Source: a virus. Taken from it: a stretch of DNA of 28,699 bases. The notes below the pieces were generated by a model. It had not been told where the DNA came from and made no database searches. It was given only the letters and a program-made list of their open reading frames with translations. Of this stretch, positions 2,594 to 26,703 are shown one piece after another. The position numbers and the translations under genes are program-made. Position 1 is the first letter of the stretch. The number at the start of each line of letters is the position of its first letter. The stretch lies in the IMG/VR virus record IMGVR_UViG_3300022934_000123, positions 1-28,699 of that record. One strand, 5' to 3'.

Positions 2594-2729
2594 CCTCCTG
2601 CCTCCGGTCCCGCTCCTCCCGATACGCATCAAAGCAATCGGGCTCGTTGTTTACAAAATCACGCTCGTCGTATTCTGGGCAATTAGGATGGTGGCCGTCA
2701 ATGCAGCCACACTCGTTACAAAGTTTCAT
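2580..2729 (-). CDS. Small Cys/His-rich (zinc-ribbon-like) protein
   Basis: A 49-residue protein starting MKLCNECGCIDGHHPNCPEY. The C-x2-C-x-C cluster followed by HH and a further Cys within the first 17 residues suggests a small metal-binding knuckle; the rest is charged (DAYREERDRRQEDVGK). Its ATG at 2729 overlaps the stop of the methyltransferase gene (ATGA), a typical coupled arrangement. Its own stop lies inside the following gene. Similar tiny CxxCG...DGH..xCP proteins are common in phages, but no function is established. The coding call rests on the coupling and on composition. Confidence 0.7.
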   Translation of the reverse strand: MKLCNECGCIDGHHPNCPEYDERDFVNNEPDCFDAYREERDRRQEDVGK

Positions 2730-3703
2730 ATCTTATTGACCTCGTTAATCCTCTCGCCGATCCAGCGCATGACCGGCACCGCCATAGAGTTGCCGATTGC
2801 TTTATACCTCGGCCCGTCTGGGCATTTGTCCGCCGTTCTATTTCGATATGGCACCTGAGTAAATCCATCGGGGAAACCTTGCAGGCGCTCGCATTCCGTT
2901 GGGGTAAGCCGGCGAACGCTCCACCGATCCGATCCCAGCTTTGCATTATCCATTGCGGAAAGTGTTGAGGATACAGATCGGAGCGGCGTCTCGGTGACGA
3001 TTGGCACATTCCCGCCGCCCGTCCCATATTTGGCGGTGACGGTACTACAGGTTTCGCCCAGCGGTTTCACTCTGCTGTCTTGCCCATGACACTCGTATAC
3101 TTCAGCGCCTCGAGCAGAATCGGCGGGAGAGTTTTCCCGCGCTTCTCGGCTCGGCGGAGAATCCCCTCGCAAGCTCTCGCGCTCAAAAAGAACCGCTGCG
3201 GCACGGCGCCAGCCTCCAAGGTATCCGACAACGAACACACGGCGGCGTCGCTGGGCCACTCCCCAGAATTGAGCGTCAAGAACTCGGTATGCGAACCCAT
3301 ACCCGATTTCTGCCAGCGCCCCGAGGAAGGCGCCAAAATCCCGTCCTCCGTTCGATGACAGGACACCGGGCACGTTTTCCCAGACCACCCACTGTGGCCG
3401 CTCTCGTTGAGCAAGCCTAATGAATTCGAGCGCCAGGTTGCCACGGTCGTCGTCCAATCCTTTTCTGAGTCCTGCGACGCTGAATGATTGGCAGGGGGTT
3501 CCTCCAACCAGAAGTCCGATTGTTCCATATTGGTTTTCTCCGATGGTTGTGAAATCGTCGTGGAGCGGAACGTCGGGATAATGATGCGACAGAACCGCGC
3601 GGGGGAATGGATCGATCTCGCTGAAAAAAGCAGGCTCCCATCTCAAGTGATGCCATGCCGCCGTGGCGGCTTCAATGCCGGAACAAACTGATCCGTATCT
3701 CAC
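2726..3703 (-). CDS. DNA cytosine-5 methyltransferase (Dcm-like)
   Basis: Transfers a methyl group from S-adenosylmethionine to C5 of cytosine in DNA. The conserved motifs are present in order in 325 residues: I (SVCSGIEAATAAW, 5-17), IV (GGTPCQSFS, catalytic Cys71), VI (ENVPG, 109-113), VIII (QRRRRVF, 151-157), IX (RLTPTECERLQGFPDGFT, about 265-282) and X (YKAIGNSMAVP, 300-310). The target-recognition region between VIII and IX (about 160-262) is about 100 residues, so a short specific site is likely. I take the GTG at 3703, whose bases overlap the previous stop (GTGA); a TTG two codons upstream is also possible. No partner restriction enzyme is visible, so its job is probably to protect phage DNA. 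The target site cannot be read from the sequence. Confidence 0.95.
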   Translation of the reverse strand: MRYGSVCSGIEAATAAWHHLRWEPAFFSEIDPFPRAVLSHHYPDVPLHDDFTTIGENQYGTIGLLVGGTPCQSFSVAGLRKGLDDDRGNLALEFIRLAQRERPQWVVWENVPGVLSSNGGRDFGAFLGALAEIGYGFAYRVLDAQFWGVAQRRRRVFVVGYLGGWRRAAAVLFERESLRGDSPPSREARENSPADSARGAEVYECHGQDSRVKPLGETCSTVTAKYGTGGGNVPIVTETPLRSVSSTLSAMDNAKLGSDRWSVRRLTPTECERLQGFPDGFTQVPYRNRTADKCPDGPRYKAIGNSMAVPVMRWIGERINEVNKI

Positions 3704-3879
3704 TCGCAAACCTCCGCGTATATCCCGCGATAGTCGGGCCAGGTATCGGCCTCGACGTTCGCGCAGTATTCCGCCTCGAGGCGCTCGGCTTCCGCCAGGT
3801 CACCGTCGCCGACGAAACCGAACGCAGCGACCAGGGCGATGATCGCCAGGGCGATCCAGTGCTCTCCGATATCCATCAT
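3700..3879 (-). CDS. Small single-pass membrane protein
   Basis: A 59-residue protein with two adjacent ATGs at the start (3879 and 3876). It has a short polar beginning, then a hydrophobic stretch WIALAIIALVAAFGFVG (about residues 8-24) long enough to span the membrane once. An acidic tail with two Cys (YCANVEAD, EVCE) follows. GGGAGAG lies 6-8 bases upstream. The stop overlaps the GTG of the methyltransferase by four bases, so translation of the two is likely coupled. No family recognised. The hydrophobic stretch is uncleaved-anchor-like, with no obvious signal-peptidase site. Confidence 0.7.
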   Translation of the reverse strand: MMDIGEHWIALAIIALVAAFGFVGDGDLAEAERLEAEYCANVEADTWPDYRGIYAEVCE

Positions 3880-4638: not shown

Positions 4639-5736
4639 CTACTTTTTTGACAGAATCGTGAACCCCGTGACCCTGCCTTTCTGGTTCATGGCGTCCATGA
4701 CTTCATAATCCTGTTTGATGAAACCAAACACCTCCTCGTTCGATTTGCCGGTCGCCGGCAGCGTGATTTTTAGCGGGATCAGATTGACCGGGACGCTCGC
4801 TGCGCGCCCGGCGGTGTGGATATATCCGCCGATGTTCTCGTCGATCACCGCCCTGATTTCGTCTCGGATCGCCTGGTTCTTTATGTCCTCGTCGACTTTT
4901 CCGACCAGCTCGGCAGCGGCCTCGTCGAACGGCCTCCAATCCAGAATGGACATATCCATCGAACCATTCTCGAACTCGACCGGAACCCGGTACATGGCGC
5001 CTTGCCACACTGGCGGACTATCGACCAGGCGCCAGCGGTCCTTTTCCCAATTCGCCAGCGTCAGGTTCAGCTTTTTGTCGTATGTCACATTGATCGAATA
5101 ATCAATATTGCCAATCAATGCCGACGCGCCCCTGGCGGATCGCCCCTCCGACATTTTGCTCGTGTGGTGTGCCAGGCAAATGGTCCCCTGGGCATCGATG
5201 GCCGGCAGCACATAATCCTCGAGCGACTTAATCAGTTTCGACGCCTCTCGGTTGTCGTTCTCCTCGAATGAGAACATGGTCGCGGTCGTGTCGAAAAACA
5301 CCGCCATCGGTGTGCCGGCCAGCTCTTTAATCCACTCCCCCATGCTCTGAATGTACTCAATCCCGAGCGACATTGTGGGCAGCGAGTACAGATTGAAGCG
5401 CCTCGGGCGATCCCCGAGATATGCTTTCATTCGGCTGCGGATATGCCCAATCGACTCCGAGAACAGGATGACGTCGCCCGGCGTGATCGGGATGCCCTGC
5501 CACTCAGTCTCCCCGGCGATCATGGCAGCGATCAGATCGCACATTAGGTGCGATTTCCCGCTATTGCTCGGCCCGTAGATCATGCCCACCGATCTGGCGG
5601 GGATTAGTTTCTCGAGCATCCACGCCGGTTCGCGGACGATCCAATCCCAGGGCTCGGTCGGGATATCGGCAAACGGACCCTCCCGCGCCTTTTGAATGTT
5701 GAGCATCCGGCTCGCTAATGCGTCATAGTCAGACAT
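4639..5736 (-). CDS. RepA-like replicative helicase / AAA_25 ATPase
   Basis: A 365-residue RecA-fold ATPase that probably unwinds DNA at the replication fork. The Walker A motif GPSNSGKS is at 55-62, and a Walker B-like strand MAVFFDTTATM is at about 144-154. The conserved LAHHTSK-x-GRSARGAS-AL segment is at about 188-207, and a strand-rich NVTYDKKLNLTLANWEKDRWR follows. This arrangement is that of plasmid RepA / phage AAA_25 helicases. The C-terminal ~100 residues (from about 265) look like a small winged-helix region (RDEIRAVIDENIGGYIHTAGRAA). I prefer the ATG at 5736 with AAGGGGG five bases upstream over a GTG seven codons earlier. It overlaps the zinc-ribbon gene by 22 bases, so the two are probably co-translated. 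Confidence 0.85.
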   Translation of the reverse strand: MSDYDALASRMLNIQKAREGPFADIPTEPWDWIVREPAWMLEKLIPARSVGMIYGPSNSGKSHLMCDLIAAMIAGETEWQGIPITPGDVILFSESIGHIRSRMKAYLGDRPRRFNLYSLPTMSLGIEYIQSMGEWIKELAGTPMAVFFDTTATMFSFEENDNREASKLIKSLEDYVLPAIDAQGTICLAHHTSKMSEGRSARGASALIGNIDYSINVTYDKKLNLTLANWEKDRWRLVDSPPVWQGAMYRVPVEFENGSMDMSILDWRPFDEAAAELVGKVDEDIKNQAIRDEIRAVIDENIGGYIHTAGRAASVPVNLIPLKITLPATGKSNEEVFGFIKQDYEVMDAMNQKGRVTGFTILSKK

Positions 5737-8469: not shown

Positions 8470-8497
8470 TTGACTCGGCGAGCGTACCGCGTAAGAT
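8470..8497 (+). promoter_or_regulatory. Sigma70-like promoter for the rightward genes
   Basis: TTGACT at 8470-8475 and TAAGAT at 8492-8497 are separated by 16 bases, both five of six matches to consensus. It would start transcription near 8504, about 26 bases before the ATG of the PP-loop gene, and it overlaps the leftward promoter. Confidence 0.75.
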
Positions 8498-8510
8498 TGC
8501 GGGGTGTCAA
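8481..8510 (-). promoter_or_regulatory. Sigma70-like promoter for the leftward operon, with operator-like dyad
   Basis: On the minus strand, TTGACA (8510-8505) and TACGCT (8486-8481) are separated by 18 bases. The -35 box is perfect and the -10 is weak. The two -35 boxes of the opposing promoters form an inverted pair TTGAC/GTCAA (8470-8474, 8506-8510), and GCGTA occurs twice between them (8482-8486, 8489-8493). These are candidate binding half-sites for the HTH protein encoded next door. Confidence 0.65.
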
Positions 8511-8529
8511 ATTATTAAACAGGGGACGC

Positions 8530-9360
8530 ATGACCTTCCAGCTCACCGAGGCCGCTTGTATTTCTTTTTCTGGTGGTCGTACTCGCGCGTACATGCTGTG
8601 GCGATTCATTGACGCCAACGATGGGCTGTCCGATGATTGCATCGTGACCTTCGCCAACACGGGGAAAGAAGCAGAGGAAACGCTGGAGTTTGTCAGGGAC
8701 TGCGGGAAGTATTGGGACGTTCCGATTGTCTGGCTGGAATACCAGTGGGCAGAGGAAACCAAGGATCGGTTCAAGGTGGTGGATTTTGACACTGCGGCGA
8801 GGAACGGCGAGCCGTTTGAGGCGCTGATTCACGCCAAAAAGTATCTGCCTAACCCCGTGGCGCGGTTCTGCACCATTGAACTAAAGATACGCACCATCAG
8901 CAACTACTTGTTTTCTATTGGCCATGTGGAAAGCCGCAACCAAGGTGAAAACATGGCAATTGTCGGCATCAGGGCTGACGAGCAACGTCGAGCCGCCAAA
9001 ATTGAGCCACACCGCAGGCCGCTGGTTTCAGCAGGCGTTACCAAAGAGACGGTCAGCAAATTCTGGGCAGAGCAACCATTTGACCTGGGGCTGCCTAACG
9101 TCAACGGCGTCACGCCTCACGGCAACTGTGACCTGTGCTACCTCAAAGGCGCAAGCCTTATTGAGTCTTTGATTGTGGAAAAGCCAAGTCGCGCTGACTG
9201 GTGGGCAAGGATGGAGCGTGAATGTCCTGCCTCGCAGCAGTCCGGCGCTCTTTGGCGCAATGACCGCCCTAGCTATGAGCAGATGCAAGTCATAGCCAGA
9301 GAGCAGGGCCAGCTTGATTTAGCTGGAGACGAAACCATACCGTGCTTTTGTGGAGATTGA
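8530..9360 (+). CDS. PP-loop protein, phosphoadenosine-phosphosulfate reductase-like
   Basis: A 276-residue adenine-nucleotide alpha-hydrolase of the PAPS-reductase superfamily. The PP-loop reads ISFSGGRTRAYML (11-23). VTFANTGKEAEETLEFV, FCTIELKIR (Cys114), VGIRADEQRRAAKI and GNCDLCYLKG (Cys200, Cys203) follow, and the end is PCFCGD (Cys272, Cys274). The Cys pairs could hold an iron-sulfur cluster or carry sulfur. Homologues of this phage type are common and their substrate is unknown; DNA or tRNA thio-modification are possibilities. I use the ATG at 8530 with AGGGG just upstream, because an earlier in-frame TTG is the -35 box. Leu-Glu pairs here use CTG-GAG or CTG-GAA, unlike the CTC-GAG of most other genes, so it may be a recent arrival. 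Confidence 0.88.
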   Translation: MTFQLTEAACISFSGGRTRAYMLWRFIDANDGLSDDCIVTFANTGKEAEETLEFVRDCGKYWDVPIVWLEYQWAEETKDRFKVVDFDTAARNGEPFEALIHAKKYLPNPVARFCTIELKIRTISNYLFSIGHVESRNQGENMAIVGIRADEQRRAAKIEPHRRPLVSAGVTKETVSKFWAEQPFDLGLPNVNGVTPHGNCDLCYLKGASLIESLIVEKPSRADWWARMERECPASQQSGALWRNDRPSYEQMQVIAREQGQLDLAGDETIPCFCGD

Positions 9361-22479: not shown

Positions 22480-22507
22480 AAAAGAAAAAGGCGCCCCGGA
22501 GGGCGCC
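22480..22507 (-). terminator. Intrinsic terminator directly after the capsid gene
   Basis: On the minus strand, GGCGCCC-TCCG-GGGCGCC forms a seven-pair GC stem (22507-22490), followed by TTTTTCTTTT. It begins eight bases after the capsid stop at 22515. Since tail genes lie downstream in the same direction and have no promoter that I can see, it is probably partial and serves to raise capsid mRNA over tail mRNA. Confidence 0.88.
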
Positions 22508-22514
22508 GTTGTCA

Positions 22515-23780
22515 TTAGGACGTAGTGACATCGAGAATCGCTGCGAACGATTCTGCGTGTCGGACTGCAACATCGACATCCTGATACATAGCGATTCGGG
22601 TCGCTCCGGTGCTTGATCCAGTGTAAGGATCAACCAGAACGTCCAGACCGCCGAACATACCGATCATTAGGTCGCTGAAGTTACCGAAAATCACCGCAGA
22701 ACAAACGCCCGAGCTGGTTCCCTTCGTCAAATCAGACGGGACCAGCGTCGTGCTGGCTACTGGGTAACCGAGCAGCGTGTTGGTGTCGTTGAGGATAAAG
22801 TTGCCCTCGACACCGCTCGCCTGACGGGAAATTTGACGCATCTCGCCGACCACTTTCGGGTTGGTGAGATATGCCAGGCTTCCGCCGAGCGCGTTGTCGA
22901 TTGCGACCTCTTTCTCGAGATCAACCAGCGCGGCATAGGTAACCGCTCCGCCGTTGGTGCCGATAGCCACAGAACCGATGCCGCTGGTCTGCGTGATGCC
23001 GGTCGGCTCGTTAGAACCGCCGCCCTCGATTGCCACCTCGTCGATTTTCGCCGCGAACTGGCGGGTCATATCGTCGCGGATGATCTGCTCAACGCTTGGA
23101 TCAGACTGCATAGATAGCTTGCGAGAGATATCGACATACTGCACCAGCGTTTTCGGCGACATTGTTACCTGACGGAACGTGGGTGCGCCCTCTGAGCCCG
23201 GCGCGTTGTTCTCAGCAACAAAACCGACCGCAGTTTTCGCATTCAGCGCGGGAATAGCGACGTCGCCGCTCAATCCCTGCATCATGCGAGCGCCCAGGCT
23301 GGAAGTCACCAGGTTAGCGCGCAGCGCGTCGATGAACTCGCCGCCCAGGTGGTCGGTAGGCTTCAAAAAGCCGCCAGCAGTGTTGGTGCCGACAGTCAGA
23401 TCACGCTTAAAAATGCTCTGCGGAACGTAAAAGCCGCGAGGCTCTTTGCCGTAACGCTTTGCAAGCTCTTCCGATACTTCACGCTCGAAACCGTCGAAAC
23501 GGCCAGTTTGCGCGGAGCGGATTGCGTTGATAAGGCTATACTGACGCTCTTCCTTCTGGGTCAGCTCAACGTCAGCGACATCGAGAGGCTTGTCGGCAAT
23601 CTTGTCCAACAATGCGCCTCGGAACTGCGCCAATGTCATGCCCTGGCGAATAGCGTCGTCAGCAAATGATCGCTGATTGTGCTTTGCGGCCAGGCCCAGC
23701 ATTTCGTTTACTTCCTTGGATCGTTCGGCAGCGGCTTCCGCGCGTACCTGATCCAAATCGATGGGATTTTCCTGTTCCAT
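22515..23780 (-). CDS. Major capsid protein from an internal in-frame start
   Basis: The ATG of codon 475 of the head polyprotein (23780) is preceded by AGGAGG with an 8-base spacer (23789-23794). It is the strongest Shine-Dalgarno match in the region and lies exactly where the capsid part begins. The product is 421 residues starting MEQENPIDLDQVRAEAAAER, a normal length for an HK97-type capsid precursor including its delta region (about 475-595 of the fusion). Independent initiation would solve the copy-number problem of a 1:1 protease-capsid fusion. The capsid homology is certain; separate initiation is inferred from the ribosome site. Confidence 0.75.
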   Translation of the reverse strand: MEQENPIDLDQVRAEAAAERSKEVNEMLGLAAKHNQRSFADDAIRQGMTLAQFRGALLDKIADKPLDVADVELTQKEERQYSLINAIRSAQTGRFDGFEREVSEELAKRYGKEPRGFYVPQSIFKRDLTVGTNTAGGFLKPTDHLGGEFIDALRANLVTSSLGARMMQGLSGDVAIPALNAKTAVGFVAENNAPGSEGAPTFRQVTMSPKTLVQYVDISRKLSMQSDPSVEQIIRDDMTRQFAAKIDEVAIEGGGSNEPTGITQTSGIGSVAIGTNGGAVTYAALVDLEKEVAIDNALGGSLAYLTNPKVVGEMRQISRQASGVEGNFILNDTNTLLGYPVASTTLVPSDLTKGTSSGVCSAVIFGNFSDLMIGMFGGLDVLVDPYTGSSTGATRIAMYQDVDVAVRHAESFAAILDVTTS

Positions 23781-25202
23781 AATTGGAACCTCCTTTTCGA
23801 TGGGTTTAATGGTAGCGGTGTCGGATACCTCGACCGAACGCCCCACACCGACTGACGGGTCGGCGGGAAGTGAAACGATAGAGACCTCCATGATTTCGGC
23901 ATCGATTACTCGGAACAAATCCTGCTCGTCCTTGTCCCTTTCCATTCGCCGAACTTTGTACCCGATTGAGACATTCGAGCGAATGCCGTCGAGAACATCC
24001 TGATAAACCTCGCTAGCAAGCGCGCCTTTTCCAAAACGCACGGTCGCCCGGAGACGCCGGGCCGATCCATCAAGGTTTACGGATTCGATTACCCCGATCT
24101 GTCGCTCGGGATCGTGATCCAGCAGCAGCGGAGCATTGCCAGATCGCAAAAATTTAAGGTCGAGCGTTTCCTCGGTGTGAACAATCAGCTCGCGACCGAA
24201 TGATCGCTCGACTTCCAGCTCACTCGATACTGACATCTCGACGCGCCGATCATCTTTTTCCTCGATCTCGGCGTGTTCCATCCGATGAAATACCTCGGAT
24301 TTGGAGAGTCGCTCCTCGTCATAATCGCCGCCAGATTCCTCGATCTCGGGCTCCTCTTCGGGCTCCTCGATCATTGGCTTCGCGAATGTGATGATGATTT
24401 CGTCATCGGTCTCGACGACCTCTTTGATATGTCGCTGTTCCACTGCGGCATCCTCTGATTTTTCAATCTCGCCAGTATACCCCGCCTTTTCGTTTTCATC
24501 ATCAGATGCCAGCGGATGCCCCGCCGGGAAAAGGTCGGTATCGTGTTTTCCGCCCTGGAATCGGTCGTTCTTCATCGCAAACAAAAACGAATTGACCCTC
24601 GCATAGCCCCATTGCTCCGGGGAGCCGACGCCAGGGCGCACCGATTCCGGGTTTGTCTTATAGGCGCCAATGCCGCGCTCCATTACTTCGCGCAACATCC
24701 CGAGCGTCACCCGCCGCAGCGGATCGTCGCCGACCTCCTCGTTGTGTTCGTCGCGCTTGTTCTTGAGCGCTGTTTCGACCTGATCGGAGAGCTGGCGGTC
24801 CTCTTTCTTTCCTTCCAGCTTTTTAATCAGCTCGAGAATCGCATCCTTCATGCCTTGCTCGCCGAGCGTACCGATGACGCCCCATTTCATCTGCGCCACG
24901 ACCCCGGCGACGTTGCTTTTGTTCGGCTCATCGCTCGATAAATGGGCGCCATCCTCAAAATGGCGCGCTGCCCAGGCTTCCCGCTCCTTGATCCAGTCCA
25001 GAACTGAATCGGCCTCGTCGCCATCCCGCGCGCGCCCCCATAACCGGAAAGCGTCATTGCCCCGGACATTCCCGCCCAGCGCCCATACTTCGGAATTGAA
25101 TTCCTTAATATTTTCCGCGAATTCTCTGTCGAACTGCGGATATTCGGAGTTTCGCAACGATATTTTCAGATCATCGCCCTTCTGGGGGAAGTCAGTCGCC
25201 AT
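22515..25202 (-). CDS. Head polyprotein: N-terminal module + HK97-type protease + major capsid protein
   Basis: An 895-residue fused frame. Residues 1-240 form a module with coiled-coil parts and EQWGYARVNSFLFAMKNDRF / DTDLFPAGHP near 197-230, a short motif met in other phage proteins. Residues 240-320 are an acidic linker. Residues about 325-460 are an HK97-type prohead protease: LLLDHDPERQIG (His363), IRSNVSIGYKVRRM (Ser412), IMEVSIVSLPADPS (Glu439). Residues 475-895 are an HK97-fold capsid protein with a long helical delta-like region and QSIFKRDLTVGTNTAGGFLK, GEFIDALRANLV and FVAENNAPGSEG. The protease would cut itself and the delta region away. An internal start at 23780 (see separate entry) can supply capsid alone. 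The gene overlaps the portal gene. Confidence 0.9.
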   Translation of the reverse strand: MATDFPQKGDDLKISLRNSEYPQFDREFAENIKEFNSEVWALGGNVRGNDAFRLWGRARDGDEADSVLDWIKEREAWAARHFEDGAHLSSDEPNKSNVAGVVAQMKWGVIGTLGEQGMKDAILELIKKLEGKKEDRQLSDQVETALKNKRDEHNEEVGDDPLRRVTLGMLREVMERGIGAYKTNPESVRPGVGSPEQWGYARVNSFLFAMKNDRFQGGKHDTDLFPAGHPLASDDENEKAGYTGEIEKSEDAAVEQRHIKEVVETDDEIIITFAKPMIEEPEEEPEIEESGGDYDEERLSKSEVFHRMEHAEIEEKDDRRVEMSVSSELEVERSFGRELIVHTEETLDLKFLRSGNAPLLLDHDPERQIGVIESVNLDGSARRLRATVRFGKGALASEVYQDVLDGIRSNVSIGYKVRRMERDKDEQDLFRVIDAEIMEVSIVSLPADPSVGVGRSVEVSDTATIKPIEKEVPIMEQENPIDLDQVRAEAAAERSKEVNEMLGLAAKHNQRSFADDAIRQGMTLAQFRGALLDKIADKPLDVADVELTQKEERQYSLINAIRSAQTGRFDGFEREVSEELAKRYGKEPRGFYVPQSIFKRDLTVGTNTAGGFLKPTDHLGGEFIDALRANLVTSSLGARMMQGLSGDVAIPALNAKTAVGFVAENNAPGSEGAPTFRQVTMSPKTLVQYVDISRKLSMQSDPSVEQIIRDDMTRQFAAKIDEVAIEGGGSNEPTGITQTSGIGSVAIGTNGGAVTYAALVDLEKEVAIDNALGGSLAYLTNPKVVGEMRQISRQASGVEGNFILNDTNTLLGYPVASTTLVPSDLTKGTSSGVCSAVIFGNFSDLMIGMFGGLDVLVDPYTGSSTGATRIAMYQDVDVAVRHAESFAAILDVTTS
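23789..23794 (-). promoter_or_regulatory. Internal ribosome binding site for the capsid protein
   Basis: AGGAGG on the minus strand, inside codons 470-472 of the fused head gene, eight bases before an in-frame ATG. It encodes K-E-V of the linker between protease and capsid, where there is little protein constraint, so its presence is unlikely to be chance. Confidence 0.8.
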
Positions 25203-26703
25203 CGGAATCCTCAGTCATCGCATCAAATGATTCGCCGGTCATCAGATTGATTTTGCCGGGTCCGTAGGGCGATTGTCCGCCGCCAAACGGCTCGAACGCT
25301 AGTTTCAGACCAAACTGCTCGGCGAGCTGCTTATCTCGAGCGACCTGGGAGAATACCTCCTCGACATCCCGACCGTATACGTTCGCGACGTCCTGGAGCG
25401 ATATCAGGCCATTTTGCAGGGCGACGACATGGGCATTGATCTCTTTCTGCGGATCGACCCAGGCAAATCCGCGCGGTCGGAACTGCGACGCGCTGGCGAA
25501 CTTGTCGAACTTATCGATGGGCAGATTAACCGAGCCAATCGTGAACGCATTAATCAGCCATTTTTCATATATCGGCATAACGAAATGCGTTATCAGATAG
25601 CTCTGAATCATTTTGTAAAAGTCGCGGTCCTCGATGCTGCCCTGCCGGATGCTCGAATAGCTGGTCTGCGTCAGATCATTCGCCAGCGAGTGATATGAAA
25701 CGCCGAGCCCCGACGCGATGCCGCGCAGGATCGATTTCTCGAAATCACCGAACGCGCTCGTCGGATGCGACGGGTCCCAGGGTTGGAACTCGACATCCCT
25801 CGGGAGCTGAAAGAATGAGCCCGGCTCGGCGTCGGTAATCGGGACGACGTTATCCTCGAGATCGTCGCCCATGAAACCCTCGCCGGACCTCGAGACGAAA
25901 AAGCCCATTTTGCTCGCAGCAGTGCGCGCAGCGACCAGCTCCGCCTCGCGATACCCGTGCAACATCTTCAGCGACGTCAGCGCGGTCGACATCCAGGGTA
26001 CGCCGCGCGTTTGCTGGGCGCGGTCGGGCATATACAAATGCAAAATGTTCTCGGCGTCGACTCGCTGGGTCCGCCGGTCGTATTGGTGGAATTGATAATC
26101 GCCGGGATGCTCGGTCATCATGTGATATGCGACCGGGCGCCGGTATTGATCGAACTCGACGCCCATCCTGATTTCGTTGCCATTCGGCGCGCGCTCGTTT
26201 TTCTCCTCGTCGATCAAGTCGGGCTCGAGGAATTCGAGCGCAAAACGGTCCTGGTTGCCGTCATAGTTGACGACTCGCACCAGCGCCTCGCCATCCCGAG
26301 CCATAGACTCGACGACCATCGCCTGCGCGTCGGCGAACGACAGCCGCCCGTCGACCGTGCAGCTCCCGACCTTCGACCATCTTTTCCATTCTTGCTCAAT
26401 GATGGTGTTGCCGATGGTATCGAGACTGCCGTCGACGTTGGTCGCTTTGACCTGGAGAGACGCCCCACGTTCCCCGACGACGTTGGTTTTTACTAGGTGC
26501 AAGTATCGCCGGGCGTATTCGTTATTTCTGGCAAGCTCTCGGCAGCGATTCCGCAGCGTTTTCAGCGAGTACCGCAGCTCCGAATCCGCCGAGCGCTGGG
26601 ATGTTACAAAGTCAGAAAACAGTCGCCCGGTCGCAGCTCCGTCGAAACCGCGCTTTTTTGCGACCGGCTTCGGCTTGCGTCGGAATATATCGAGCATTCC
26701 CAT
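25192..26703 (-). CDS. Portal protein (lambda gpB-like)
   Basis: A 503-residue protein that forms the dodecameric vertex ring through which DNA enters and leaves. The N-terminus, MGMLDIFRRKPKPVAKKRGF, is followed by LRNRCRELARNNEYARRYLH and LVKTNVVGERGASLQ, the standard opening of lambda-family portals. VESMARDGEALVRVVNYDGN, LEFLEPDLIDEEKN, GMGVEFDQY-type strands, LHLYMPDRAQQTRGVPWMST and LGVSYHSLANDLTQTSYSSI follow in the usual order. The ATG overlaps the stop of the connector gene (TGATG), and its end overlaps the head-polyprotein start by 11 bases, indicating tight coupling in the packaging-head block. Confidence 0.95.
   Translation of the reverse strand: MGMLDIFRRKPKPVAKKRGFDGAATGRLFSDFVTSQRSADSELRYSLKTLRNRCRELARNNEYARRYLHLVKTNVVGERGASLQVKATNVDGSLDTIGNTIIEQEWKRWSKVGSCTVDGRLSFADAQAMVVESMARDGEALVRVVNYDGNQDRFALEFLEPDLIDEEKNERAPNGNEIRMGVEFDQYRRPVAYHMMTEHPGDYQFHQYDRRTQRVDAENILHLYMPDRAQQTRGVPWMSTALTSLKMLHGYREAELVAARTAASKMGFFVSRSGEGFMGDDLEDNVVPITDAEPGSFFQLPRDVEFQPWDPSHPTSAFGDFEKSILRGIASGLGVSYHSLANDLTQTSYSSIRQGSIEDRDFYKMIQSYLITHFVMPIYEKWLINAFTIGSVNLPIDKFDKFASASQFRPRGFAWVDPQKEINAHVVALQNGLISLQDVANVYGRDVEEVFSQVARDKQLAEQFGLKLAFEPFGGGQSPYGPGKINLMTGESFDAMTEDSDGD

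Follow-up and report, generated by a model that had tools for sequence, protein, structure and literature searches.

In phage lambda, the scaffold protein Nu3 is made from a nested start; the nested product is scaffold only, and the capsid protein is encoded by a separate gene. The protease and scaffold of lambda (C/Nu3) share an open reading frame (ORF) (PMC8508860). A comparable arrangement occurs in UL26/UL26.5 of herpes simplex virus 1 (HSV-1), where a long protease-containing form is accompanied by a nested product that has the same sequence as the C-terminal portion of the long form (PMC12474303), here again a scaffold and with its own gene start. In HK97, the protease (gp4) and then a capsid protein with an N-terminal scaffold domain (gp5) are encoded by separate genes (PMC10275583, PMC8508860), whereas protease, delta (scaffold) part, and HK97-type capsid lie in one ORF in phrog_617, in NF045541, and in gp5 of Pseudomonas phage MD8 (PMC8508860). 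A protease-capsid fusion is also known from the annotation of RcSwan. Here, we describe such a fusion ORF in the 28,699-base virus record IMGVR_UViG_3300022934_000123 of IMG/VR, analysed at its full length (the window). It differs from the lambda, HSV-1, and HK97 systems in that protease and capsid are fused and the predicted nested product is the major capsid protein itself, with a predicted ribosome site. Its N-terminal modules further set it apart from MD8 gp5, whose protease is modelled on ClpP and for which section 9 of PMC8508860 describes no internal start. Judging from sequence, a second, internal ribosome site very probably lets the cell also make capsid alone in this marine phage and most relatives compared here.

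Anatomy of the fusion ORF

An intact ORF of 895 residues was confirmed on the minus strand (Table 1), its start overlapping the portal gene (25192-26703) at the 3′ end of the latter. It runs from an N-terminal module of ~235 residues through an acidic linker, an S78 protease, and a short linker to an HK97 capsid. Pfam searches matched Peptidase_S78 at residues 353-451 (45 bits, cut-off 21, 1.7e-11) and Phage_capsid at residues 620-888 (127.4 bits, cut-off 24.2, 9e-37), bearing out an earlier note on this DNA that had read a module, a serine protease with His363/Ser412/Glu439, and an HK97 capsid in one 895-codon frame. These three residues, which we take to be the catalytic residues of the S78 prohead protease, were unchanged in all 81 aligned sequences and in all 20 of a more distant set (the window counted in both). 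The profile phrog_617 (major head protein, fusion) was matched near its full length (positions 22-624 of 626, residues 315-892, 2.8e-135) and, because the match spans residues 315-892, the protease-capsid fusion itself belongs to a known family. The NCBIfam model NF045541 (protease/major capsid protein fusion) gave only a partial match over residues 316-553, at 140.5 bits and below its cut-off of 525. The terminator that the earlier note had placed after the stop codon was recovered as a terminator-like hairpin with a T-rich tail, beginning 7 nt past the stop (fold z -2.5).

The head genes of the window are ordered terminase, small protein, portal, fusion ORF, and connector proteins, which is the order of roseophage CRP-821, a member of the CRP-822-type group (PMC12629253). 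In that group, the same gene order and a fusion ORF are found in CRP-821, CRP-823, CRP-831, CRP-406, and CRP-811; the roseophage paper names the gene capsid, and the word 'protease' occurs 0 times in it (PMC12629253).

A conserved, predicted ribosome site inside the fusion

The inner AGGAGG of the window lies 8 nt upstream of the in-frame ATG at 23780-23778 (Met475), a position that agrees with the earlier note. To place this site among relatives, we collected the best 80 of 475 matches from IMG/VR together with 19 annotated records; two further searches gave the best 80 of at least 577 and the best 80 of at least 592 matches, and loci L103-L175, from the search with at least 577 relatives, were left out of the analysis. 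The inner start was defined as the first in-frame ATG downstream of the protease end motif, and a Shine-Dalgarno (SD) site was counted at a duplex energy of -4 kcal/mol or better. The linker residues vary, yet an in-frame Met occurs in all sequences compared, and the first ATG falls 9-38 residues (median 20) beyond the S78 end motif in 100 of 100 sequences. By this fixed rule, an SD preceded the inner ATG in 95 of 100 sequences and 26 of 30 clusters, compared with 104 of the 590 other in-frame ATGs of the representatives; choosing the inner Met by alignment for 19 distant sequences and L060 led to the same outcome (26/30). Relatives collected via the N-terminal modules alone carried the inner SD in 32 of their 36 nonredundant ORFs, compared with 229 of the 1372 other ATGs.

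These collections share some members (L308 is the same contig as L060) and were merged and re-clustered at 80% identity, yielding 64 clusters of protease-capsid fusions that cover both. Rows left out were L001 (module only), L275 (end motif not found), one of 167 ORFs in the pooled test, and nine ORFs with a protease and without a capsid match, eight of which reach the contig end; the ninth, L205, is a closed ORF on an apparently chimeric contig. In the pooled set, 58 of 64 clusters carried an SD at the inner ATG. Such a site was far rarer at in-frame control ATGs 105-260 residues ahead of the end motif (87/303, p 2e-20), at out-of-frame ATGs of the same linker (11/74, p 2e-17), and at other in-frame ATGs (253/1376, p 2e-29). 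An SD core of at least 4 nt was found in 61 clusters, 60 of which space it 4-8 nt from the ATG. Against synonymous-codon shuffles, the mean duplex energy was -7.0 kcal/mol observed compared with -3.8 kcal/mol under the null (pooled Fisher p 3e-9).

As a sequence feature, a conserved in-frame internal initiation site of the UL26/UL26.5 type is thus present in 58 of the 64 clusters, and the putative nested capsid start is a family-wide feature of protease-capsid fusions. The earlier note had proposed that a nested start makes free capsid; same-fusion homologues were checked for a missing internal site, and the proposal is well supported by the large majority that keep one.

Inner ATGs with an SD were also seen in fusions with other proteases (L313-L315). 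Met220 of MD8 (SD -6.9) aligns with Met188 of PhiR47_1 (-6.0) at the protease/scaffold junction, and Met214 of RcSwan has an SD of -5.6, the front part of RcSwan not being matched by that of MD8. Other SD-bearing Mets lie near the junction (MD8 Met185 at -11.4) and the comparison comprises three sequences only, and we regard these sites as a lead and not as evidence; convergence is possible.

The predicted nested product and its proposed maturation

Residues 475-895 were modelled with AF2 (mean pLDDT 72.8) as a helical N-terminal part (helices 9-33, 37-45, 50-62, and onward in the numbering of the nested product), followed by an HK97 fold. The best Foldseek match of this model was the R4C capsid (8gta, 1.6e-20), and 1ohg was also matched (1.1e-13); comparison with 8gta in VIA gave Z 18.5 over 242 aligned residues at 4.4 A. 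The nested product is thus predicted to be a full HK97-type capsid protein, including an N-terminal delta domain of its own.

R4C is itself in the relative set, with a 629-residue fusion ORF and GGAGG at the inner ATG. Its chain in PDB 8gta corresponds to ORF residues 362-629; in at least one relative, then, the modelled virion chain lacks the protease and most of the delta part. The first modelled residue aligns with window residue 610. Since the numbering of the 8gta entry is ~26 higher than the position in the chain, the mature R4C start may lie near ORF residue 336, or ~589 in the window by alignment. A cleavage near residue 595, as suggested in the earlier note, is compatible with both positions. 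The R4C chain bears only indirectly on a presumed proteolytic activity against the capsid precursor; in the main text of the R4C paper (PMC10276861), neither 'protease' nor 'cleav' occurs.

We propose, at a probability of roughly 0.8, that one gene gives two in-frame products, a minor long protease carrier and a nested delta-domain capsid made in bulk. Initiation at 25202 would produce a 98-kDa carrier with the N-terminal module(s), S78 protease, delta domain, and capsid, while initiation at the internal SD and Met475 would yield a 45-kDa protein of delta domain plus capsid, the counterpart of HK97 gp5. The carrier would co-assemble with the bulk capsid via its own capsid part, and protease would thereby enter the prohead as a minority component with no need for a dedicated targeting signal. 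There, the protease would remove the delta domains and cut itself and the N-terminal modules off, leaving a capsid that starts at about residue 589-610. We infer the use of both starts, the greater use of the inner one, the co-assembly, and the self-cleavage from this arrangement.

Exchangeable modules at the N-terminus

Modules A and B (Table 1) were modelled as a compact helical two-part domain (mean pLDDT 77). The structure prediction called for in the earlier note gave no fold assignment: neither a PDB relative by sequence at E <= 1 nor a PDB match by Foldseek at E <= 0.001 was found for A and B. No catalytic domain, known fold, or enzyme family was found in A or B, and Pfam revealed no polyvalent enzyme domain in the window protein. 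The best row in VIA, the mimivirus sulfhydryl oxidase 3td7 (Z 7.1, 119 aligned, 3.9 A), was not used as a fold assignment, because VIA's own note puts such a score within chance for helical models. Named BFVD matches at E <= 0.002 were XkdF-like, ChaB-named, and prohead-protease proteins of uncultured phages, in agreement with the genomic contexts of the modules.

Among relatives, module B is absent from L018, L045, and L050, while in others A is replaced by module Ap, or there is an additional module, either C, Hva1_TUDOR (PF11160, 9e-9), or the Cys-rich D; CRP-821, for instance, carries Ap, B, and C in place of the A and B of the window. A tryptophan/glycine-rich core is visible by eye in both A and Ap, but a profile comparison, which included four Ap sequences only, gave a probability of 0.2% that they form one family, and they are, therefore, treated as different modules. 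A scan of 137 loci placed modules ahead of protease-capsid in 67 (in eight different orders) and ahead of a protease only in 9. The remaining 61 ORFs carried a module chain with neither protease nor capsid by our probes, and 19 of these were scanned with Pfam. Twelve had a portal domain (three also with a MuF match below cut-off), with the modules at the C-terminus of the portal; two had another S78 protease, accompanied in one case by ferritin-like and HAD domains, one a sub-threshold MuF match on a cut ORF, one ART-PolyVal, and three no recognised partner. The ART-PolyVal (polyvalent-type ADP-ribosyltransferase) case, in L232, is the single instance in which a B-like (DUF5824-like) stretch adjoins this domain.

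At the level of sequence comparison, the N-terminus is a set of exchangeable cassettes that also occur on portals and separate proteases. That portal and protease proteins have this module set in common points to the head interior, which is compatible with cargo and also with a role in assembly or DNA handling. The arrangement may be comparable to that of the polyvalent proteins, multi-domain phage head-associated proteins with swapped domains, for which the available text names portal and MuF carriers and no protease-capsid carrier (PMC5512222).

In CRP-823 (L084), the front part of the fusion ORF is split: near position 5050, one extra T relative to CRP-821 breaks the fusion inside module C and parts Ap and B from C, protease, and capsid, the downstream part having its own annotated start at 5016. 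Unless it is a sequencing error, the split suggests that the front modules may not need to be fused; purification was not possible for five of the seven phages (PMC12629253). Separately, in L044 (3608-3990), a stop shortens module A, which is out of frame with module B, protease, and capsid. An S78 protease ORF without capsid in L303 (3282-5399) also carries module Ap and HAD phosphatase-like and ferritin-like domains.

Alternative explanations

Several observations weigh against the two-product reading. The cyanophages S-LBS1 and S-CBS3 retain the inner Met and have no SD, and in four further clusters (Mano, FoX3, L279, L304) the SD is weaker than -4 kcal/mol, the linker Met being kept in all six. 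Of 72 loci compared, 35 have an inner SD stronger than the outer one and 37 a weaker one, so that a capsid excess is not readable from SD strength; the earlier proposal that the long form acts as protease carrier is supported in part, following naturally from a nested start, but SD strength lends the inner start no systematic favour, even though in the window it is much the stronger (-12.3 vs -5.9 kcal/mol). The shuffle test for the window alone gave p = 0.34. Values for single sequences are often unremarkable, since K-E-V linkers encode GGAG in any case, and the strength of the test comes only from pooling. The SD cores fall mostly in one codon register (50 of 61, with 7 and 4 in the other two), and much of the site is thus written with the same kind of residues. 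Finally, the closing G of the inner SD and the start codon fall within a 6-bp palindrome (GTTCCA-ATTA-TGGAAC, 23774-23789), and in a 45-nt fold the 6-bp hairpin occupies that G and the UG of the start codon. Close relatives retain a 5-bp stem over the inner start, as judged by eye. The hairpin could lower or regulate inner initiation, or it could be a by-product of V-P-x-M-E-Q codons.

The codon register bears directly on a reading in which the Met and purine tract are kept for the K/E-rich residues of the linker and not for initiation, as K-E-V and similar words give GGAG by default and the synonymous null already averages -3.8 kcal/mol. We consider this improbable: the duplexes are on average stronger than under that null in the pooled test, in-frame ATGs ahead of the protease end are without the signal, 11 of 61 cores lie in another register (e.g., in the T-Q-R-S and T-I-R-G words of CRP-821 and VP882), and the SD-ATG spacing is that of ribosome sites. 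It is also unlikely, if a little less so, that the inner ATG and SD are an unused relic of separate genes and that all capsid is made as a long polyprotein cut by the protease. HK97 has protease then capsid unfused (PMC8508860), so a relic start would be expected just after fusion, but it would decay, whereas relatives at 34-94% identity in the capsid part retain the inner start despite a linker that varies in sequence and length, with an SD stronger than the amino acids require. Moreover, the R4C head has 415 capsid copies (PMC10276861), and 53.5 kDa extra per subunit would amount, by arithmetic, to ~22 MDa of protein inside the prohead, some four hundred 53-kDa N-terminal parts that would crowd it.

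Two further readings concern the modules. The earlier note had suggested that the N-terminal module is perhaps a scaffold, in which case the long form would be the major assembly species; the modules are indeed N-terminal and helical in the model, and scaffolds of the lambda type are encoded in one ORF with the protease (PMC8508860). Nevertheless, this seems very improbable, given that a helical delta domain already follows Met475, that the modules are exchanged or partly missing among relatives, and that they recur at the C-terminus of portals. Some relatives, such as VP882 (632 residues, matching from residue 335 on only) and R4C, have fusion ORFs too short to accommodate the modules. Compatible with the two-product reading, and tentatively entertained here, is that the modules are cargo, loaded via the fusion, cut free in the prohead, and perhaps entering the host with the DNA. 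They are gained, lost, and swapped ahead of a constant protease-capsid, recur on portals, stand-alone proteases, and once beside ART-PolyVal, and polyvalent proteins have been proposed as head-packaged effectors (PMC5512222); yet neither A nor B shows a catalytic domain or known fold, and the modules might just as well assist the protease or the portal, or take part in DNA handling. In a more speculative version, bulk capsid would come from the hidden start while the minor long form tows cassettes and protease into the prohead, self-cleavage would free the cassettes for delivery with the DNA, and portal C-termini would be a second route to the same place.

Relation to described systems

Protease-capsid fusions are already known, as is a nested product of a protease-scaffold gene (HSV, lambda). 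Among 19 GenBank records of relatives, 0 annotate a capsid start at the inner ATG, and the Mica and Mano records, which mark ribosome sites at gene starts, mark none there. An internal capsid start in a protease-capsid fusion was not found in searches of an open-access library, a weak negative as most subscription journals lie outside it, and a conserved nested start for the capsid itself may, to that extent, be new. If the two-product reading is true, the annotated 'major capsid protein' of many phages, including VP882, phiHAP-1, R4C, RcRhea, ep3, and the CRP-822-type roseophages, would be two proteins, and a shorter, probably more abundant product of those genes would stand unannotated. It would offer a simple answer to how a capsid-fused protease stays in the minority, and a parallel to herpesvirus UL26/UL26.5 with the capsid itself as the nested product. 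The swappable N-terminal cassettes would mark a site at which small head-associated domains are exchanged between phages.

Features of the locus and neighbouring genes

Table 1. Coordinates of the fusion gene and its elements in the window
Feature	Position	Strand	Basis
Long-form coding sequence (CDS): N-module + S78 protease + HK97 capsid, 895 aa, 98 kDa	22515..25202	-	ORF and profile matches
GAGGA ahead of the long-form start, duplex -5.9 kcal/mol	25208..25212	-	
Module A, residues 1-131, predicted helical	24810..25202	-	Boundary from AlphaFold model
Module B, residues 132-235, DUF5824-like	24498..24809	-	
S78 prohead protease region, residues ~320-458 (Pfam core 353-451; H363, S412, E439)	23829..24245	-	
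Internal SD AGGAGG, duplex -12.3 kcal/mol	23789..23794	-	
Predicted nested CDS from Met475: delta domain + HK97 capsid, 421 aa, 45 kDa	22515..23780	-	
Predicted delta (scaffold) domain, residue 475 to 609 at the furthest (uncertain end, 588-609), helical for the most part in the model	23376..23780	-	
Predicted mature capsid, HK97 fold, from residue 610 at latest to 895	22518..23375	-	
Terminator-like hairpin + T-rich tail	22490..22507	-	

Elsewhere in the window, a phosphoadenosine phosphosulfate reductase-like gene at 8470-9360 on the plus strand is a possible auxiliary metabolic gene, and a DNA methyltransferase-like gene (phrog_116) lies at 2726-3709 on the minus strand.

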